NCBI RefSeq assembly: GCF_000733725.1
Contig: NZ_JMQM01000003.1
Span: 186,001-250,000 of the forward strand
Reading direction: 5' to 3'
DNA: 64,000 bases
From: Nitratireductor basaltis
GTDB lineage: Bacteria; Pseudomonadota; Alphaproteobacteria; Rhizobiales; Rhizobiaceae
Part shown: in pieces, positions 8,722 through 18,174 of the stretch
How positions within the stretch are numbered: position 1 is the first letter of the stretch
Layout: every line of letters starts with the position of its first letter
Notes under the pieces: model-generated
What the model saw: the letters and a program-made list of their open reading frames with translations, nothing else
Databases searched by the model: none
What the model was told of the DNA's origin: nothing
Translations under genes and position numbers: made by a program

Positions 8722-9453
8722 TCAGATCGAGCGCTGATTGACGCGTCGGGAAACTTGCTCCGCCGTCTCCACGCGCTCGGAATAGCGGTCGACAAGGTAG
8801 TCGGAACGCTCGCGAAGCAGAAGCGTGAACTTCATCAGCTCCTCCATCACGTCCACGATGCGGTTGTAATAGGGCGACGGCTTCATCCGGCCGTTTGCGT
8901 CAAATTCATTGAAGGCCTTGGCGACGGAAGACTGGTTGGGAATGGTGAACATGCGCATCCAGCGGCCGAGTATGCGAAGCTGGTTCACCGCATTGAACGA
9001 CTGCGAACCACCACAAACCTGCATGACAGCAAGCGTGCGGCCCTGGGTCGGGCGCACTCCGCCAAGCGACAGCGGCAGCCAGTCGATCTGCGCCTTCATG
9101 ATGCCGGTCATGGAGCCGTGGCGTTCCGGCGAACACCAGACCTGTCCCTCCGACCACATGGAAAGTTCGCGCAGCTCCTTCACCTTCGGATGATCGGGTG
9201 TCTCGGCATCGGGAAGCGGCAGTCCGCTCGGATTGAAGATGCGCACCTCCGCACCTAGCCGGCGAAGAATCCGCGCCGCCTCTTCCGTAGCGAAGCGCGA
9301 ATAGGAGCGTTCGCGAAGCGACCCATAGAGCATGAGGATGCGCGGTGCATGGCGCATGCGCGGCGCGTTGAACAGCCTGTCCTCGTCAACGGGCGGGAAA
9401 AGCTCGCTCTCCAGATTGGGAAGGTCGGAAAGGGATGAGGGGCTGTTAGACAT
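8722..9453 (-). CDS. arsH: ArsH, NADPH-dependent FMN reductase for organoarsenicals
   Basis: 243 residues. Diagnostic motifs are the FMN phosphate loop [12 protein letters not shown], then [25 protein letters not shown], and the strongly conserved [20 protein letters not shown]. ArsH proteins oxidise trivalent methylated or aromatic arsenicals and are tetrameric cytosolic flavoproteins. The start at 9453 gives the usual short polar N-terminal tail before the NxPR(I) strand. It leads the operon with arsR and an MFS gene; no arsC arsenate reductase gene is nearby. Confidence 0.95.
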
Positions 9454-9789: not shown

Positions 9790-11238
9790 GTGAATTACGA
9801 ATTGCGATACAAGGGTGCGGCGCCGGTTTCGGTTTGTCTGGCAGGGGCAGGGGGCTTTGGCCGCAGCTTTCTGGTGCAGAGCCGCTCCATACCACTGATC
9901 GCGGTACGTATCGTGGTGGAGCGTGACGCTTCCATCGCTGTCGCCACGCTCAAGGCTGTCGGGCTTGAGGAAAGCGAGATCGCACTTTGCGCCTCGCCCG
10001 CCGAGGCCGCGGCGGCATGGGAGCGCGGTAACATGGTCGTTGTGGACGACATGGCTCATGTGGCCGCACTTCCCTATCAGGTGCTTGTCGAAGCCACGGG
10101 GCATCCGGAGGCGGGAGCGCGTCACGCGCATATGGCGGTCTCCGCGGGCCGCCACGTGGCCCTTGTCTCCAAGGAAGTGGACAGCGTTATCGGTCCCGGT
10201 CTTTCCGCGATGGCGCAGTCGAATGGCTGTGTCGCGACACCCGTGGACGGCGACCAGCCGAGCCTGCTGATCAGCCTCATCACCTGGGCGCGCGTCCTGG
10301 GACTTGAGATCATCGGCGCGGGCAAGTCCAGTGAATATGACTTTGTCTATGATCCCGACGCAAAAGAGCTGACCTGCAATGGCCGCGTGATTTCACTGCC
10401 CGGTATGGCAGAGCTTATGAGCGGTCCGGACGTGACGCTGCTCGACCGCGTTGCCCGCCGCGCGCAAGTCGCTTCCATGATCAATCAGCGTGCAGTGCCG
10501 GATCTGTGCGAACTGTCCGTCGTTGCCAATGCAACGGGCCTCCAGCCCGACCGCGCGGATTTTCACTCACCGATCGCCCGTATTCAGGAGGTGCCGTCGC
10601 TGTTCCGCCCCGCGGAAGAAGGTGGACTGTTTGCAAATGGTGGAGTGCTGGACGTCTTCCACTGCCTGCGGCTGCCCACCGAGTTGAGCCTGGCCGGCGG
10701 TGTCTTCATCACCGTGCGCTGCAATGATGCCGAGACATGGAAGATGCTGGGCGAGAAAGGCCACACTCTGGCGCCCGACGGCAGGACGGCGATGATTGCC
10801 ACGCCACGCCATTTGTTAGGCGTTGAGGCCGCGACCACCATTCTCGATGCCGCAATTCTGAACGAGACCAATGGCGGCGTGAAGCCGGCTCATCATGTGG
10901 ATCTGGTGGCTTGTGCCACTGCCGACCTGCCTGCGGGGACCGTGCTTTCCATGGGCGGTCATCATCACACGATCGACAATGTCGCCGCGCGCATACTGCC
11001 AGCCCGCAGGCTAGATGAAGATGCACCGGCACCTTTCTATCTCGCCGCCAATCGCCGGCTGAGACAGGCCGTTCGCGCGGGCGCGAATATCACGATGCAG
11101 GATCTGGAAATTCCCGAAGAAGACGAGCTGCTCGGTCTCCGGCGCTGGCAGGACGGGCACTTCTTCGGGTTGAGCGATGCCCCCGCTCGAAATGAGGGCT
11201 TGGAAGTTCACCAACAGAGGGAGGAGAAGGTTCGATGA
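9790..11238 (+). CDS. DXR-like (DRL) NAD(P)-dependent oxidoreductase with C-terminal SAF domain
   Basis: A GTG start preceded by GGGGGACGAG gives 482 residues. The N-terminus is a Rossmann fold (VCLAGAGGFGRSF, nucleotide loop near residues 19-24), followed by EATGHPEAG and LVSKEVDS, and a homoserine-dehydrogenase-like middle (TPVDGDQPSLL, GAGKSSEYDF). The end (DLPAGTVLSMGG to RAGANITMQDLEI) looks like an SAF/antifreeze-like domain. This architecture is that of the Brucella DXR-like protein, which can make methylerythritol phosphate; annotation pipelines often call it FlgA-like or homoserine dehydrogenase-like. As first gene of a TTT/dehydratase operon, a redox step on an imported polyhydroxy acid is more likely than isoprenoid synthesis. 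It overlaps the next gene by four bases. Confidence 0.75.
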   Translation: MNYELRYKGAAPVSVCLAGAGGFGRSFLVQSRSIPLIAVRIVVERDASIAVATLKAVGLEESEIALCASPAEAAAAWERGNMVVVDDMAHVAALPYQVLVEATGHPEAGARHAHMAVSAGRHVALVSKEVDSVIGPGLSAMAQSNGCVATPVDGDQPSLLISLITWARVLGLEIIGAGKSSEYDFVYDPDAKELTCNGRVISLPGMAELMSGPDVTLLDRVARRAQVASMINQRAVPDLCELSVVANATGLQPDRADFHSPIARIQEVPSLFRPAEEGGLFANGGVLDVFHCLRLPTELSLAGGVFITVRCNDAETWKMLGEKGHTLAPDGRTAMIATPRHLLGVEAATTILDAAILNETNGGVKPAHHVDLVACATADLPAGTVLSMGGHHHTIDNVAARILPARRLDEDAPAPFYLAANRRLRQAVRAGANITMQDLEIPEEDELLGLRRWQDGHFFGLSDAPARNEGLEVHQQREEKVR

Positions 11239-12188
11239 AACAGATGTTCAAGGCAGCGGTTGCTGTCGCAGCAGTCGTGGCAGCCATGCCGGCCATGGCG
11301 CAGGACGAATACCCCAACAAGACGGTTGAAGTGATCACCCATGCCGGTGCCGGTGGCGGTACCGACGTTACCACTCGCATGATGATGATCCGCGGACGTC
11401 GCCTGCTTGGTCAGGACATGGTCGTGGTCAACAAGAGCGGCGGTGCCGGTGTTGTCGCCATGAACTACTTCAAGGACAATATCGACAACGACCACATGCT
11501 CATGACCTTCACCAGCGGTCATGCAATCCAGATCGCGGCTGGCAAGACCGGCCTGACCATGGACGAAATGCGCCCCATCGCGCGTGGCACCGACGATCCG
11601 CAGATCTTCATGACGCGCTGTGACAGCGAGTACAACTCGCCGCAGAAGCTCGTCGATGCGATGAAGGACAATGCCATCAAGTTCGGCACCGCCAATCTCG
11701 GCGATATCGACCAGATTTCCACCTATGTTTTCGCCAAGGAAGCAGGCCTGACCCAACCGACCATCGTGCCGTTCTCCGGCGGTGGCGAAGTGGCAACGCA
11801 GCTCGTCGCGGGCTCGGTCGATGTCGGCGTGCTCAACCTTGCCGAAGCCGCAGCCCAGATCGAGGCAGGCGATATCTGCCCGCAGATCATCCTTGCCGAA
11901 GAAGGCATGTCGGTGATCCCCGATGCGGTAACGTCCTACTCGCTGGAAATCCCCGTGTCATTCTCGACCATCCGCGGTTTCGTGGCACCGGCCACCATCA
12001 CCGACGAACAGGCCGCGATCCTGGAAGAGAAGCTGGTCGAAGCGATGAATCACTCCGTCTACCAGGGCTACCTGACCTCGGTCGGTCTTGATGGAAAATC
12101 CGTTGTCGGCTCGGAAGCCTGGGGCAAGCAGATGTCCAACATGGTGAAAGCCATGGGGCCTGCACTCGAAGAACTCGGCCTGAAGTAA
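11235..12188 (+). CDS. TTT-family periplasmic substrate-binding protein (TctC/Bug)
   Basis: A signal peptide (MKQMFKAAVAVAAVVAAMPAMA, cut near residue 22) precedes a Bug-family domain beginning YPNKTVEVITHAGAGGGTDVTTR, where the GGGTD loop binds a carboxylate group. 317 residues is normal. It delivers a carboxylic acid to the TctA/TctB membrane pair encoded next. The overlap with the oxidoreductase gene and the following dehydratase genes suggest a sugar acid as ligand; that is inference. Unusually two cysteine-containing segments (FMTRCDSEY and GDICPQII) could form a disulfide. Confidence 0.9.
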   Translation: MKQMFKAAVAVAAVVAAMPAMAQDEYPNKTVEVITHAGAGGGTDVTTRMMMIRGRRLLGQDMVVVNKSGGAGVVAMNYFKDNIDNDHMLMTFTSGHAIQIAAGKTGLTMDEMRPIARGTDDPQIFMTRCDSEYNSPQKLVDAMKDNAIKFGTANLGDIDQISTYVFAKEAGLTQPTIVPFSGGGEVATQLVAGSVDVGVLNLAEAAAQIEAGDICPQIILAEEGMSVIPDAVTSYSLEIPVSFSTIRGFVAPATITDEQAAILEEKLVEAMNHSVYQGYLTSVGLDGKSVVGSEAWGKQMSNMVKAMGPALEELGLK

Positions 12189-12203
12189 TCGGAGCGGTCC
12201 GGC

Positions 12204-12728
12204 ATGTCACATCTGGAAGAACTGCAGTCAGACCTGCCGGACCGCAAGACCGGCACGAGGGAGAAACCGGCGCTCGCCGATCTCCTGGTGCCGGTCTTCA
12301 TCTTCATCTTTGCCGGCGTGGTGACCGCGCTGGCACTGACCTTCGATCGCGCGCCTGCCGCCTTTGTCGGCTCCGGCATGCAGCCGCGTGCCTTTCCAAT
12401 TTTTCTGATGGGGGCGGTGATCATTCTCAACCTCTTCCTCATTCGAGAAACCATCAAGAACCCGCCGGAGAGGCGCGAGCCCCTGGACGGCATGGTCTGG
12501 ATCACCATCGCACTGATGGGCGTGTTCGCGCTCGTCACCACGTTCGCGGACATGATGCTGGCGCTGGCGATCACGATCTTCGCCAAGTCGCTTCTGTGGG
12601 GCGAGAGGCGCGTCTGGGTGGCGCTTGCGCTGGCGATCCTGACGCCGCTGACGATCCTTCTGTTCTTCGATCTCGTGCTTGAAGTCCGCTTTCCCCGCGG
12701 CTGGCTGACCAACATCTATTACGGCTGA
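12204..12728 (+). CDS. TTT-family small membrane subunit (TctB)
   Basis: 174 residues with four hydrophobic segments and an N-terminal polar tail, the normal size and layout for TctB. Characteristic is the A-F-P motif after the first helix (GSGMQPRAFPIFLMGAVI). It sits 15 bases behind the binding protein and 11 bases before the large permease, completing a TctC-TctB-TctA set in the order usual for the family. Confidence 0.88.
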   Translation: MSHLEELQSDLPDRKTGTREKPALADLLVPVFIFIFAGVVTALALTFDRAPAAFVGSGMQPRAFPIFLMGAVIILNLFLIRETIKNPPERREPLDGMVWITIALMGVFALVTTFADMMLALAITIFAKSLLWGERRVWVALALAILTPLTILLFFDLVLEVRFPRGWLTNIYYG

Positions 12729-12739
12729 GGAGAAGCAGG

Positions 12740-14221
12740 ATGTATGACGCGATTGCCGCCATGGGGTCGGTGTTTCTCGATCCCTATCTGATCTTCCTCG
12801 TGGCCATAACAACAGTCGGTGGCGTGATTATCGGAGCGTTGCCCGGTCTGGGTGCGACGACAGGTGCGGCGCTGCTGCTGTCTTTCACGCTGACCATGGA
12901 GCCGATCCACGCGATCACGGTCCTGACGACGATCTATGTCTCCGCGACCTTTGCGGGGTCGATTACAGCAATCCTGATCAACACACCGGGAACATCCTCT
13001 TCCGCCGTGACCTGTCTGGACGGCTATCCGCTGGCGCAGCGCGGGGAGGCGGGGCGTGCGCTCGGCGTGGCGGTGGTTTCCTCCACATTTGGCGGCATCT
13101 TTTCGGTGATCGCGCTCGCCATTGCAGCACCGATGATGGCATCGGTCGCCTATGAATTCCGCCCGCCGGAATATTTTGCCCTGACACTGTTCGGCCTCTC
13201 AATGCTCGCAACCATCTCCGGCGGCGGTGCGGTGAAGAACCTGATCGGCGGCATGTTCGGCGTTTGGCTGGCAACGATCGGAGCAGACAAGTCTACCTCC
13301 ATCGAGCGCTTCATGTTCGGCCAGTACGAACTTTACGAAGGTTTGGACTTCATCTCCGTCATGATCGGTCTGTTCGCCATGTCGGAACTGCTGGTTCAGG
13401 CGGGGGCGCTGAAAAATTCGGCCGCCGTGGTGCGGATGAAGGCGATCAAGCTTCCCTCCATGGACGACTATCGCAAGATCTGGCGCGCGGTGCTGCGCTC
13501 CTGCGGCATCGGCACTTTTGTCGGCATCCTGCCGGCGGAAGGCGCGACCGTCGCCTCCATGATCGGCTATTCCGAAGCCCGCCGCTGGTCGAAGAATCCG
13601 GAAGAGTTCGGCAAGGGCTCCATCGAGGGCATTGCCGGTGCGGAGGCCGCAAACAATGCGGCAACCGGTGGCGCGATGGTGCCGACCATGGTGCTGGGCA
13701 TTCCAGGCTCCGGCACGGCGGCGGTCATCCTGGTTGGCCTGCTGGTGCACGGTCTTCGCCCCGGCCCCTATCTCTTCACCGAGCAGGTGGACACGGTCTA
13801 CGGCATTTTCGGCGCCATGCTGCTTGCCAATCTGATGTTCCTGGTCATCGGCCTTTTCTTTGCCAAGCAGTTTGCCCGCGTCTCGCTTATCCCGATCCCG
13901 ATCCTGTGGCCGATCGTGTTCGCGCTGTCGATCATCGGTGCCTATGCGCTCAACCAGTCAATGCTGGATGTGTGGCTCGTGCTGATCTTCGGCGTGGTCG
14001 GCTTCTTCATGCGCCGCTTCGGCTTTGACGTGGCGCCGGTCGCCATCGGCCTGATCCTTGGTCACATGGTCGAGACCAATCTGCAGAACTCGCTGAAGAT
14101 CTTCGACGGCGCGTGGTGGATGATCCTCACCCAGCCTTTGGCCCTGCTTTTCATCGTGCTTTCCGCAATCACCCTTTTCGGTCCGGCCCTGCTTGCGCGC
14201 TTCAAGCGCCGGGCAGCCTGA
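12740..14221 (+). CDS. TTT-family large permease (TctA)
   Basis: 493 residues, about twelve hydrophobic segments. Family hallmarks are [16 protein letters not shown] near residue 35, [28 protein letters not shown], and the repeated-half version [20 protein letters not shown] and [16 protein letters not shown]. It is the ion-coupled channel of the transporter. The stop is 22 bases upstream of the enolase-family gene, whose ribosome-binding site (CGAGGAG) lies in the gap. Confidence 0.95.
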
Positions 14222-14243
14222 CCGCAGTTACGAGGAGTATTTC

Positions 14244-15419
14244 ATGACCAAGATAAAATCCGTTCGCACGCGTGTCTGGACCTGGAAGGGGCCGACCGTT
14301 CCGCCCACCGGCAATTTCTGCACAAATGCTTCGGATGCCCTGCGCATCGAGGGTGACGCGATGGCCTCCTTCCGCTTTCACCAGTGGCTGACCTGCGAGG
14401 TCGAGGCCGAGGACGGTACGATCGGTATCGGCAATGCGGCCCTGGCGCCGACCGTCGTCAAGCAGGCGATCGACGAATGGTATGCACCGCTGGTTATCGG
14501 CGAAGACCCGTTCGACTACGCCTATATCTGGGAGAAGATGTATCGGCGCAGCCATGCCTGGGGCCGCAAGGGCATCGGCATGACCGCGATCTCGGCGGTG
14601 GACATCGCCATCTGGGACCTGATGGGCAAGCTGGTCGGAAAGCCGGTCTTCAAGCTTCTGGGCGGACGGACAAAGGACAAGATCCCGGTCTATTATTCCA
14701 AGCTCTATGCAGGACCGATCGAGAGCATGCAGCGTGAGGCCGAGGAAGCCATGAAGAATGGCTACAAGGGCTACAAGTCCCGCTTCGGCTTCGGCCCGAA
14801 GGACGGCATGCCGGGCATGCGCGAGAATCTCAAGCGTGTCGAGGCCGTGCGCGAGGTCATCGGTTACGACAACGACCTGATGCTTGAATGCTATATGGGC
14901 TGGAACCTCGATTACGCGAAGCGCATGCTGCCCAAGCTGGAGAAATACGAGCCGCGCTGGGTCGAGGAGCCGGTCATTGCCGATGACGTGGAAGGCTATG
15001 CCGAGCTTAACGCAATGGGCAGTGTTCCGATCTCCGGCGGCGAGCACGAATTTTCCGTCATCGGCTGTGCCGAGTTGATCCGGCGCAAGGCCGTCAGCGT
15101 CCTGCAATATGACACCAATCGGGTGGGTGGCATCACTGCGGCGCAGAAGATCAACGCCATTGCCGAAGCAGCCCAGATCCCCGTCATCCCGCATGCCGGA
15201 CAGGCCCACAACTATCACCTGACCATGTCGAACGTGAACTGCCCGATCGCCGAGTATTTCCCGGTGCACGACGTCGAAGTAGGCAACGAGCTGTTCTACT
15301 ATATCTTCGAGGGTGACCCGGAGGCTGTGGACGGCTTCCTGCAGCTTGACGATGACAAGCCGGGGCTCGGCATCACAATCACCGACAAGCATCTGAGCAA
15401 TTTCGAGATCACGGAATGA
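14244..15419 (+). CDS. Enolase-superfamily sugar-acid dehydratase, L-rhamnonate-dehydratase-like
   Basis: 391 residues with the start chosen from CGAGGAG upstream. The N-terminal capping domain is followed by the (beta/alpha)7-beta barrel. Predicted metal ligands are E215 (LMLECYMG), E241 (WVEEPV) and E267 (SGGEHEF), with H268 beside it; the D290-H317 pair ([17 protein letters not shown]) would be the general base dyad. This order, including the EH pair, is that of L-rhamnonate dehydratases, though the first ligand is Glu where many have Asp. It should turn an aldonic acid into its 2-keto-3-deoxy acid. Together with the next gene an L-pentonate such as L-lyxonate or L-arabinonate is a reasonable guess. 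It overlaps that gene by four bases. Confidence 0.82.
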
Positions 15420-16327
15420 CGACCTATAGCGGCATCTGGCCGGTTGCGCCGACACCCTTCAACGAGGATGGCAGCGTCGACTACGAGGGCATGAAACGGG
15501 TGATCGACTGCATGGTCGATCAGGGCAATGACGGCATCTGCATCCTCGCCAATTTCTCCGAGCAGTTCCTGATTTCCGACGAGGAAAGACGCAAGCTGAC
15601 GGAGCTTTCGCTAAAGCATCTGGCGGGACGTCTTCCCTGCATCGTCACGATCAGCCATTACGCAACGGATATCGCGGTGGATCGCGCGGCCCACGCCAAG
15701 GCAAATGGCGCGGATATCGTGATGATGATGCCGCCCTATCATGGCGCGCTGCTGAAGGGTACGCCGGAGCAGACCTTCGAGCAGTTTGCCCGCGTGGGCG
15801 AAGTGGGCATTCCTATCATGGTGCAGGATGCGCCGCTTTCGGGCGTCGAGCTCTCCGTGCCGCTTCTGGTGAGGATGGCGCGCGAGATCGAGATGGTGAA
15901 GCTTTTCAAGATCGAGTGTCCGCAGGCCGCAGCAAAGCTGCGCACGCTGATTGCCGAAGGCGGTGATGCCATTGAAGGTCCGTTCGACGGTGAGGAGGCG
16001 ATAACGCTCCTGGCCGACCTCGAGGCGGGTGCCACCGGCACGATGACATCGGCCATGATCCCGGACCAGATCAAGCCGGTACTTGAGCGTCATGCCGCCG
16101 GCGACCGCGACGGAATGATCGCGGCCTATGAACGTGTGGCGCTTGCCATCAATCACGAAAACCGCCAATGCGGTTTCCGTTCGGCCAAGGCTGCAATGGT
16201 TGAAGGCGGCGTGATCCGTTCGGAATTCTGCCGTCATCCGATACCGCCGCTGCATCCGCAGACGCGGGACCTGCTCTTGCGTCTCATCCGGCCACTGGAT
16301 CCGGTGGTTCTGAACTGGGGGAAATGA
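15416..16327 (+). CDS. DHDPS/NAL-superfamily dehydratase or aldolase, likely 2-keto-3-deoxy-pentonate dehydratase
   Basis: 303-residue single TIM barrel opening [17 protein letters not shown]. The Schiff-base lysine is K165 (KLFKIE). At the place of the DHDPS catalytic tyrosine, 28 residues earlier, is Q137 (IMVQDAP), so the enzyme is not a dihydrodipicolinate synthase. The VQDAPLSG and [12 protein letters not shown] stretches look like L-2-keto-3-deoxyarabonate dehydratase (product 2-oxoglutarate semialdehyde), which I recognise from memory only. It is coupled by four-base overlaps to the upstream sugar-acid dehydratase and to the downstream GntR gene. Confidence 0.78.
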
Positions 16328-17049
16328 TCGTGGTCACGAATTCCGCATTGTCAGACCTTCAGGGAAGCGATCTGGAACTGCAGCGCCCGCGCGCGACGCT
16401 GGTCGAGATCGCCGCCGACAAGTTGCGCGAATTCATCTTGCTGGAAAAGCTTCCACCCGGGGCCAGCATCTCGGAGCGTGACGTGGCTGCCGCCCTTGGC
16501 ATCAGCCGCACACCCCTGCGCGGTGCGCTGACGCTCCTGGAGCAGGATGGGCTGGTCGAATATTCGGTAACGCGCCGACCGCATGTCGCCGATCCTTCCC
16601 TGGAAGAAGTGACAGAGAACCTCGTCGTCATGGGGGCGCTTGAAGCGCTTGGCGGCGAACTTGCCTGCGCCAATGCGAGCGACGAGGAAGTGAACAATAT
16701 CGTCGACCTCCAGCAGAAGATGGCGGCTGGGGCCGATACACTCGAGCCCCTGGAATTCTTCCGCACCGACATGGCGATGCATCAGATGATCATCAAGGCA
16801 AGCGGAAACCGCGCCCTTATCGAGACCCACGCACGGTTCAATGCGCGTCTGTGGCGGGCGCGCTTCGTATCCTCGCGACGCAGCGACGGCCGCCAGCAGA
16901 CGCTTGCCGAACATGCAGCCATCGTCGACGCCTTGAAGCGCCGCGATGCCAGGGCAACCGCAGGTGCCTTGCGTGAACATCTCAGATCAGCCGTGACGAA
17001 CATTTCCGTAGCGCTCGAAGAACGGCGCGCGGCAAAGGAAAAGGAATAG
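16324..17049 (+). CDS. GntR-family (FCD) transcriptional regulator
   Basis: 241 residues. Winged helix around residues 25-85 (ISERDVAAALGISRTPLRGALTLLE, then wing RRPHVADPS), then an all-helical FCD effector domain whose metal-binding residues are visible as FRTDMAMHQMI and the later LAEHAAIVDAL. FCD domains bind carboxylates, fitting control by the operon's own substrate. It is the only regulator in the 9790-18084 operon and is read from within it. A candidate operator lies at 9730. Confidence 0.92.
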   Translation: MIVVTNSALSDLQGSDLELQRPRATLVEIAADKLREFILLEKLPPGASISERDVAAALGISRTPLRGALTLLEQDGLVEYSVTRRPHVADPSLEEVTENLVVMGALEALGGELACANASDEEVNNIVDLQQKMAAGADTLEPLEFFRTDMAMHQMIIKASGNRALIETHARFNARLWRARFVSSRRSDGRQQTLAEHAAIVDALKRRDARATAGALREHLRSAVTNISVALEERRAAKEKE

Positions 17050-17052
17050 ATC

Positions 17053-18084
17053 ATGCGCCCGAAAATTGGCCTTATACCTGGCGATCCGAGCGGAATCGGG
17101 CCTGAACTCTGCGCACGGTTGCTTTCGGAAAACTGCACTGCAGATGCCGACATCCTGCTTTTGGGTGACAGGCATGTCTTCGAACGCGGCCAGGAGCAGG
17201 CTGGACTCAGCCATCTGATGGTCGAGGTGGATGCGGCGAGCGAAGACTGGACGAAAACGCCCCGTTTCGCCTTTCACCCGATGCAGACCATCGCACCGGA
17301 CGAGGTCGAGATCGCGAAGAACACAAAAGCTTCCGGCAGTTCCACGCTCAAGGTTCTCGATCAGGCGCTCGAATTCGTCCAGGCGGGCGTGATCGACGCC
17401 ATATGCTTTGCGCCCTTCAACAAGGCCTCCATGCATCTGGCGGGCATCGGCCATGCGGACGAGCTTCATTACATGGCGGAGAAGCTTGGAGCCACCGGCT
17501 ATATCTCGGAGCTCAACACGCTTGACGGCATGTGGACGAGCCGCGTGACGAGCCATATCGCGCTTCGTGAAGTTGCCGACGTGATCGACGGCGAGCGCAT
17601 CAAGGAAGCAACCCATCTCATCCATGATGTCCTGCGCCGCGCCGGCTATGAGCGCCCGCGCATCGCGGTCGCAGCACTCAATCCTCATGCAGGTGACAAT
17701 GGCAATTTCGGCCGCGAGGAGATCGACGTGATCGAGCCTGCTGTGCGCGAAATGGCCGAAAGCCAGATGGCGGTGGAAGGGCCGACACCCTCGGATACGG
17801 TCTTTCTGAAGGTGACCCGGGGCGAGCTGGACGCGGTGGTGACCATGTATCACGACCAGGGCCAGATCGCGCTGAAACTGCTTGGCTTCGACCGCGGCGT
17901 TACTGTCCAGGGCGGTTTGCCCGTGCCCGTCACCACGCCGGCCCACGGCACCGCCTTCGATATCGCGGGGCAGGGTGTTGCCGATGTCGGCGCGATGAAA
18001 GCCGCCTTCCAGATTGCCTGCAACATGGTGAAGAACTGGGACCGGGAGCAAATGTCCGGCACCCGCGAAGCAGCTACCGCATAA
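17053..18084 (+). CDS. PdxA-family dehydrogenase (4-hydroxythreonate-phosphate dehydrogenase-like)
   Basis: 343 residues, opening with KIGLIPGDPSGIGPELCARLL, the PdxA N-terminus. The three metal-binding histidines are present: H168 (VTSHIALREV), H212 (ALNPHAGDNG) and H267 (TMYHDQGQ). Also conserved is PAHGTAFDIAGQGVAD. PdxA proteins oxidise a hydroxyacid and decarboxylate the product; paralogues act outside vitamin B6 synthesis, for example on D-threonate 4-phosphate or in terephthalate breakdown (TphB). Its place last in a sugar-acid operon, with no kinase gene beside it, suggests a catabolic, perhaps non-phosphorylated substrate. Confidence 0.88.
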   Translation: MRPKIGLIPGDPSGIGPELCARLLSENCTADADILLLGDRHVFERGQEQAGLSHLMVEVDAASEDWTKTPRFAFHPMQTIAPDEVEIAKNTKASGSSTLKVLDQALEFVQAGVIDAICFAPFNKASMHLAGIGHADELHYMAEKLGATGYISELNTLDGMWTSRVTSHIALREVADVIDGERIKEATHLIHDVLRRAGYERPRIAVAALNPHAGDNGNFGREEIDVIEPAVREMAESQMAVEGPTPSDTVFLKVTRGELDAVVTMYHDQGQIALKLLGFDRGVTVQGGLPVPVTTPAHGTAFDIAGQGVADVGAMKAAFQIACNMVKNWDREQMSGTREAATA

Positions 18085-18136: not shown

Positions 18137-18174
18137 AAAGCCCCGCCGACCTGCCGGTCCGCGGGGCTTTTTTT
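18137..18174 (+). terminator. Intrinsic terminator of the sugar-acid operon
   Basis: AAAGCCCCGC pairs with GCGGGGCTTT (10 bp, 14-base loop) and runs into a T tract, 52 bases after the PdxA-like stop. The A-rich left side would also allow termination for the convergent ABC ATPase gene. Confidence 0.9.

Follow-up and report, generated by a model that had tools for sequence, protein, structure and literature searches.

In the L-ascorbate pathway of Ralstonia eutropha H16, said to have been reported by Stack in 2020, a PdxA-family enzyme reportedly converts 2-carboxy-L-lyxonate to L-lyxonate, while the L-lyxonate pathway of Pseudomonas aeruginosa, reportedly described by Ghasempur in 2014, employs an enolase-type and a DHDPS-type dehydratase to arrive at 2-oxoglutarate semialdehyde. 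Both resemble an operon of Nitratireductor basaltis, which is located within the 64,000 nucleotides of contig NZ_JMQM01000003.1 from position 186,001 to 250,000 (hereafter the window) and is analysed here. With the Ralstonia pathway the operon shares a predicted PdxA-family decarboxylase, L-lyxonate dehydratase and ketodeoxypentonate dehydratase, and with the Pseudomonas pathway the two types of dehydratase; unlike the ascorbate pathway it harbors no propeller, amidohydrolase or aldehyde dehydrogenase, but instead a TctABC importer and an oxidoreductase of the DRL family. To our knowledge, neither PdxA nor DRL is part of the Pseudomonas pathway. The DRL protein itself belongs to the sequence family of Brucella DXR-II, and some of its relatives are found in OtnK/OtnC loci of the L-threonate/D-erythronate pathway, which a section of PMC12540250 gives as LtnD-OtnI-OtnK-OtnC. 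The window operon contains neither OtnK nor OtnC, such a set being present elsewhere in the genome. On balance, and at slightly better than an even chance, we read the operon as one for a branched sugar acid that is degraded via PdxA and L-lyxonate, with DRL as an added sugar-acid dehydrogenase. The lower pathway is known, and the novelty is the added DRL enzyme, which comes from a group without assigned function. Families, operon structure, linkages and residue changes are direct results of the analysis, and the substrates and reactions named below are predictions drawn from them.

According to open reading frame and domain calls, the eight genes form one series on the + strand in the order DRL-TctC-TctB-TctA-enolase-DHDPS-GntR-PdxA (9790-18084). 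The successive gene junctions measure -4, +15, +11, +22, -4, -4 and +3 bases, and a single transcript is expected for all eight genes because three junctions are 4-base overlaps and the gaps at the other four do not exceed 22 bases. The stem-loop at the operon end has a folding energy of -26.3 kcal/mol, compared to a mean of -15.6 kcal/mol (standard deviation 2.86) for shuffled sequences, none of 200 shuffles being equally stable. The gene order, tight spacing and strong terminator described in an earlier sequence-only reading of this DNA are thus confirmed. For the enolase gene, the ATG at 14244 is a more likely start than the TTG at 14193 given in the list of open reading frames. A search for inverted repeats upstream of DRL yielded short palindromes only. 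Within the operon no gene for an aldehyde dehydrogenase and none for a propeller is present; the rest of the host genome was not searched for the latter.

Table 1. Features of the operon, with positions referring to the window.
Feature	Position	Strand	Remarks
DRL-family NAD(P)-dependent oxidoreductase (Pfam PF21135)	9790..11238	+	DXR-II-like, 2/3 phosphate-side residues replaced; proposed sugar-acid dehydrogenase yielding a 3-oxo acid
TctC, substrate-binding protein of tripartite tricarboxylate transporter (TTT)	11235..12188	+	domain call
TctB, small membrane subunit	12204..12728	+	domain call
TctA, large membrane subunit	12740..14221	+	domain call
Enolase-superfamily acid-sugar dehydratase, predicted L-lyxonate dehydratase	14244..15419	+	K178-x-R180, D290, H317
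DHDPS-family protein, predicted L-2-keto-3-deoxypentonate dehydratase	15416..16327	+	similarity to solved enzymes
GntR/FCD transcription regulator	16324..17049	+	domain call
PdxA-like oxidoreductase, non-phosphate subfamily; predicted decarboxylase of 2-carboxy-L-lyxonate or similar acid	17053..18084	+	
Intrinsic terminator, operon end	18137..18170	+	stem-loop followed by U residues

Among solved proteins, the enolase-superfamily member is closest to 3STP, 3SQS and 3SSZ (E 4e-250 to 1e-240), with rhamnonate dehydratases reaching E 7e-56 at best. The earlier description of this protein as RhmD-like is corrected accordingly, and L-rhamnonate dehydratase, the name under which this enolase appears in plasmid records, is set aside as its function. 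The three solved proteins, whose titles give no proven function, are presumed by us to be L-lyxonate dehydratases. The K-x-R motif and the His-Asp dyad of the superfamily are present (K178-S-R180, D290 and H317); R180 and H317 presumably correspond to R179 and H316 of the published L-lyxonate dehydratase, being one position off at equal spacing. The protein thus looks like an L-lyxonate dehydratase of the mandelate racemase (MR) subgroup. The DHDPS-family member is most similar to L-2-keto-3-deoxyarabonate (L-KDA) dehydratase (3FKK and 7C0C, E 8e-106 and 9e-106), and a lysine that we take to be the Schiff-base residue is aligned with that of 3FKK. It looks like an L-2-keto-3-deoxypentonate (L-KDA) dehydratase, L-lyxonate and L-arabinonate giving the identical ketodeoxy acid.

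The connection of these two dehydratases to the PdxA-like protein was assessed in the loci of its best 80 of at least 592 confirmed relatives, where a gene was counted if the match covered at least half of the query, several loci being cut by contig ends. At 45% identity or more, the enolase is found in 59/80 and the DHDPS type in 51/80 loci. TctA is present in 33 (identity down to 37%) and one type of aldehyde dehydrogenase in 24 loci, a 71% identical relative of the latter being encoded in the host genome outside the operon. Amidohydrolase and propeller occur in 19 and 17 loci, respectively; their queries came from the same 80 loci, with identities of the best matches as low as 37-38%. For the propeller, a hit to Pfam YNCE just below the cut-off and one to the solved propeller 1L0Q (E 1e-20) were obtained. 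Related PdxA loci that hold both propeller and amidohydrolase resemble the ascorbate pathway in this respect, although we infer the equation with the enzymes that Stack reportedly described in 2020. In Ruegeria pomeroyi DSS-3, a TRAP transporter, a propeller (84% identical), PdxA, an enolase annotated as L-rhamnonate dehydratase, the DHDPS type, an aldehyde dehydrogenase and a gluconolactonase are clustered, and this cluster matches the reported L-ascorbate route. An ascorbate degradation pathway requiring a COG4948 enzyme, COG4948 being an enolase-superfamily group, is cited in a passage of PMC10444878.

From its linkage to the enolase and to genes of the ascorbate route, the PdxA-like subfamily is predicted to be of the 2-carboxy-L-lyxonate decarboxylase type, and a 2-carboxy-pentonate-like acid is the likely substrate of the operon. 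The sequence-only reading had placed both oxidoreductases in catabolism, performing additional redox (or redox-isomerase and decarboxylating) steps before or beside the dehydratases; both do fit catabolism, and a decarboxylation by the PdxA-like enzyme ahead of the dehydratases is the best reading. Its statement that no pathway with this gene set had been described holds for the DRL gene, but not for PdxA and the two dehydratases, which constitute the lower half of the reported L-ascorbate route. Alternatively, the whole operon could serve a C5 acid with a linear chain, namely L-lyxonate or one of its epimers, with DRL and the PdxA-like enzyme together epimerising or oxidising it and no branched acid involved. 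Both dehydratases reportedly belong to the L-lyxonate route (Ghasempur), and linear C4 acids are the apparent substrates of the DRL relatives in OtnK/OtnC operons; since part of the PdxA subfamily is accompanied by genes of the ascorbate route, which runs through a branched acid, we consider this alternative unlikely, however.

Compared to the canonical PdxA of the host genome, the window PdxA-like protein has D-E-L, Thr and Val in place of G-H-T, Asn and Arg. The exchange of G-H for D-E is found in 60/60 enolase-linked and 19/19 DRL-linked proteins, in the protein of L117 (a locus with both DRL and enolase) and in the window; throughout the same proteins Asn is replaced by Thr (in one case Ser) and Arg by Ile, Val or Leu. 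In this count, the 20 DRL rows comprise the 19 proteins and that of the window, L117 being counted apart. These positions presumably have substrate- or phosphate-side roles in PdxA, and with G-H, Asn and Arg replaced the subfamily suits substrates without phosphate. In a PdxA tree of 103 rows, calculated by a quick method with a very distant outgroup and hence with an unsure root, the window protein clusters with L004 and L005, which are both enolase-linked. Of the 20 DRL loci that bear a PdxA, 19 contribute their proteins to a single group, which also includes the enolase-linked L179; the L117 protein is placed with the enolase-linked L058, L072 and L083. According to these groupings, DRL occurs with three lineages of the PdxA subfamily.

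The window DRL protein matches Pfam DRL_cat as well as Brucella DXR-II (PDB 3UPL/3UPY, E 1e-27). Parts of PMC3847144 describe Lys191, Lys193 and Thr229 of DXR-II as anchoring fosmidomycin. Lys191 is kept in the window protein, whereas Lys193 is replaced by Ser and Thr229 by Asp in 35/35 rows including the window; L136-L139 (Thr/Asp), L185 (Met/Ala) and the DXR-II row had been removed before counting. For the DXR-II-like oxidoreductases DLO1 and DLO2, those parts of PMC3847144 name no Asp at position 229 in either group, with the proviso that the alignments may differ by one position, and the DRL tree held no published DLO1 or DLO2 sequence. Among the titles and abstract openings listed by a literature search, none gives a function for DRL relatives besides DXR-II.

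Contrary to the window DRL, which is part of a catabolic operon, a separate gene at C3:128093-129370 (L140:9222-10565) encodes a protein that matches solved Brucella DXR-II (E 6e-205) and has retained all three residues, Lys/Lys/Thr. In the host genome search neither DXR-I nor HMG-CoA reductase was found, while IspG was, so that the host seems to rely on DXR-II for its isoprenoids. That the window DRL is the reductoisomerase of the 2-C-methyl-D-erythritol 4-phosphate (MEP) pathway, or a spare copy of it, would agree with the missing DXR-I and HMG-CoA reductase and the presence of IspG, but with two of three phosphate-side residues missing and a true DXR-II encoded separately this assignment is rejected as extremely improbable.

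DRL matches at E 1e-60 or better are found in 29/394 genomes of the family, including the window, and in 0/7 other genomes of the genus in this set. Further afield, 6/385 genomes of the class (E 1e-50) and 7/398 of the phylum (E 1e-45) have a match, again with the window included. All 38 matches outside the window, a number that does not include L022 and L140, were inspected as loci, each covering 6.7 to 19.9 kb. PdxA is present in 20 of these loci, OtnK or OtnC in 10, either of the two kinds in 27 and neither in 11, and 32 loci contain TTT or TRAP transporter genes. Eight of the 10 Otn-bearing loci are devoid of LtnD and OtnI within the stretch, while L119 and L126 have such genes. All five proteins tested pass the NCBI 3-oxo-tetronate cut-offs (OtnK of L139, L183 and L128; OtnC of L112 and L183), and the single OtnC protein scanned against Pfam is of the Aldolase_II type, which in a section of PMC12540250 is tied to 3-oxo rather than 2-oxo substrates. 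As OtnK needs a 3-oxo acid also in the loci that show no further dehydrogenase of its pathway, DRL most likely produces such an acid from a free sugar acid.

Five of 27 plasmid records with DRL were inspected. In three of these, from Paracoccus ferrooxidans, Palleronia and Alloyangia, DRL is followed by a transporter, a four-carbon acid sugar kinase and an aldolase, with no further annotated oxidoreductase between DRL and the aldolase. Being the sole annotated oxidoreductase of this run, DRL is a candidate maker of 3-oxo-tetronate. In a Comamonadaceae plasmid the kinase and aldolase are divergent from DRL, and near DRL of an Agrobacterium plasmid sugar ABC transporter genes are found instead of kinase and aldolase. 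The plasmid records name DRL relatives flagellar biosynthesis protein FlgA, SAF domain-containing protein or homoserine dehydrogenase. A gene of the 'putative cyclase' type (PF04199) recurs near DRL and TRAP genes (L112, L113, L114, L115, L116 and L184).

DRL might also retain DXR chemistry and convert, by rearrangement and hydride transfer, a linear 2-keto acid to a branched 2-carboxy polyol acid, which the PdxA-like enzyme would then oxidise and decarboxylate; this would be analogous to the conversion of 1-deoxy-D-xylulose 5-phosphate to MEP with a carboxylate in place of the methyl group. Homology to DXR-II and the association with three distinct lineages of a PdxA subfamily predicted to act on branched acids speak in favor of such a reaction, as does a dihydroxyacetone-kinase-type fusion beside PdxA and DRL in 5/38 loci, a neighbor that would be appropriate if the product were a C3 or C4 ketose. 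The OtnK/OtnC operons, however, lead one to expect a linear 3-oxo-tetronate that requires no change of the carbon skeleton, and the DXR-II phosphate-side residues are replaced, so we regard retained DXR chemistry as rather unlikely. The kinase-type protein itself (L128:2347-4893, with relatives in L129-L131 and L133) is extended at its N terminus by nearly 280 residues that belong to no known family, and the initial 276 residues of the L128 protein match no solved structure at E 0.01.

In the DRL tree (41 rows) the window protein lies within a group of 20 rows (100/99), 16 of which have a nearby PdxA if the window and L022, where PdxA sits in the operon neighbouring DRL, are counted. The long branch of the window DRL calls for caution regarding its placement. 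Whether DRL and the enolase were joined once or twice is left undecided by this tree, a grouping of window and L117 not being rejected (p-value of 0.41 in the approximately unbiased test); a difference between the two is seen in the PdxA and importer lineages only.

Several observations weigh against the reading of a branched-acid route to which DRL has been added. The DRL-enolase link rests on two loci, the window and L117, the latter being the only one of the 38 DRL loci with this enolase type (67% identical). Co-occurrence at the genome level is weak evidence taken alone (2/394 genomes, hypergeometric p 0.046): 27 of the 29 DRL genomes lack an enolase match of E 1e-150 or better, so the DRL-PdxA pair needs no L-lyxonate route. 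A binomial estimate for the PdxA linkage presupposes that loci are unrelated and uses a guessed number of genes, and no weight is placed on it here. Conversely, DRL is absent from 79/80 PdxA loci as fetched, hence the core works without it. The linkage of the oxidoreductases to the dehydratases, which the sequence-only reading had left to neighbourhood searches, is therefore usual for PdxA and unusual for DRL, although a PdxA of the same subfamily accompanies DRL in more than half of its loci (20/38). The rarity of DRL beside this core and of the enolase beside DRL would be expected if DRL were a chance passenger or served another pathway from a shared promoter; given the 4-base overlap with tctC and the three PdxA lineages found with DRL, we deem this quite improbable.

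Furthermore, no NCBIfam model comes near its cut-off with the aldehyde dehydrogenase that is proposed to complete the route. Ascorbate itself is probably not the substrate and was set aside as unlikely, since the operon has no propeller, the protein assigned to diketogulonate rearrangement, and the relatives of the lactonase-type amidohydrolase in the host genome are only 29% and 31% identical. The host also possesses an L-threonate type cluster (C2, about 289.7-293.4 kb; L188:8226-11912), in which LtnD, OtnK and OtnC exceed the NCBI cut-offs and an OtnI relative stays below (278.5 vs 325 bits). With an L-threonate operon already at hand, a C4 acid such as L-threonate would alone be a weak reason for the presence of DRL here.

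In the route that we favor nonetheless, TctABC would import a branched, 2-carboxy-pentonate-type C6 sugar acid, which the PdxA-like enzyme would decarboxylate to L-lyxonate. The enolase-type enzyme would dehydrate L-lyxonate to L-2-keto-3-deoxypentonate and the DHDPS-type enzyme would dehydrate the latter to 2-oxoglutarate semialdehyde, which an aldehyde dehydrogenase encoded outside the operon may oxidise to 2-oxoglutarate. In addition, DRL would act as an NAD(P)-dependent dehydrogenase of sugar acids with 3-oxo acids as products (or substrates), through which a further acid, e.g. a stereoisomer or an oxo relative, may enter the route via PdxA and L-lyxonate. PdxA enzymes likewise proceed through a 3-oxo acid. 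As to the origin of the substrate, portions of PMC6225978 describe 2-carboxy-L-threo-pentonate and 2-oxo-L-threo-pentonate as products of diketogulonate and propose 2-carboxy-L-lyxonate as a non-oxidative (non-enzymatic) by-product of diketogulonate or vitamin C breakdown. Provisionally, 2-carboxy-L-threo-pentonate is regarded as a synonym of 2-carboxy-L-lyxonate. A bolder proposal, which we find doubtful, is that a branch of the DXR-II-like family, the one carrying the FlgA, SAF-domain and homoserine dehydrogenase names in databases, consists of catabolic oxidoisomerases, one enzyme performing the work of LtnD and OtnI on C4 acids and, together with PdxA-like decarboxylases, opening or closing branched skeletons of the vitamin C type; this would constitute an undescribed entry into L-lyxonate catabolism.

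Outside the operon, the arsenical resistance protein ArsH (NCBIfam match) is encoded on the - strand at window position 8722-9450, and the adjoining open reading frames resemble, by eye, a small regulator and a membrane transporter.

The comparison ties the DRL oxidoreductases, a group that is misleadingly named in databases, to two concrete chemistries, namely the formation of 3-oxo-tetronate and PdxA-like decarboxylation, and thereby makes their function directly testable. DXR-II and PdxA are best known for phosphorylated substrates, and in this operon relatives of both have lost phosphate-side residues beside an importer for free acids. The operon thus points to a bacterial use of acids left from vitamin C.

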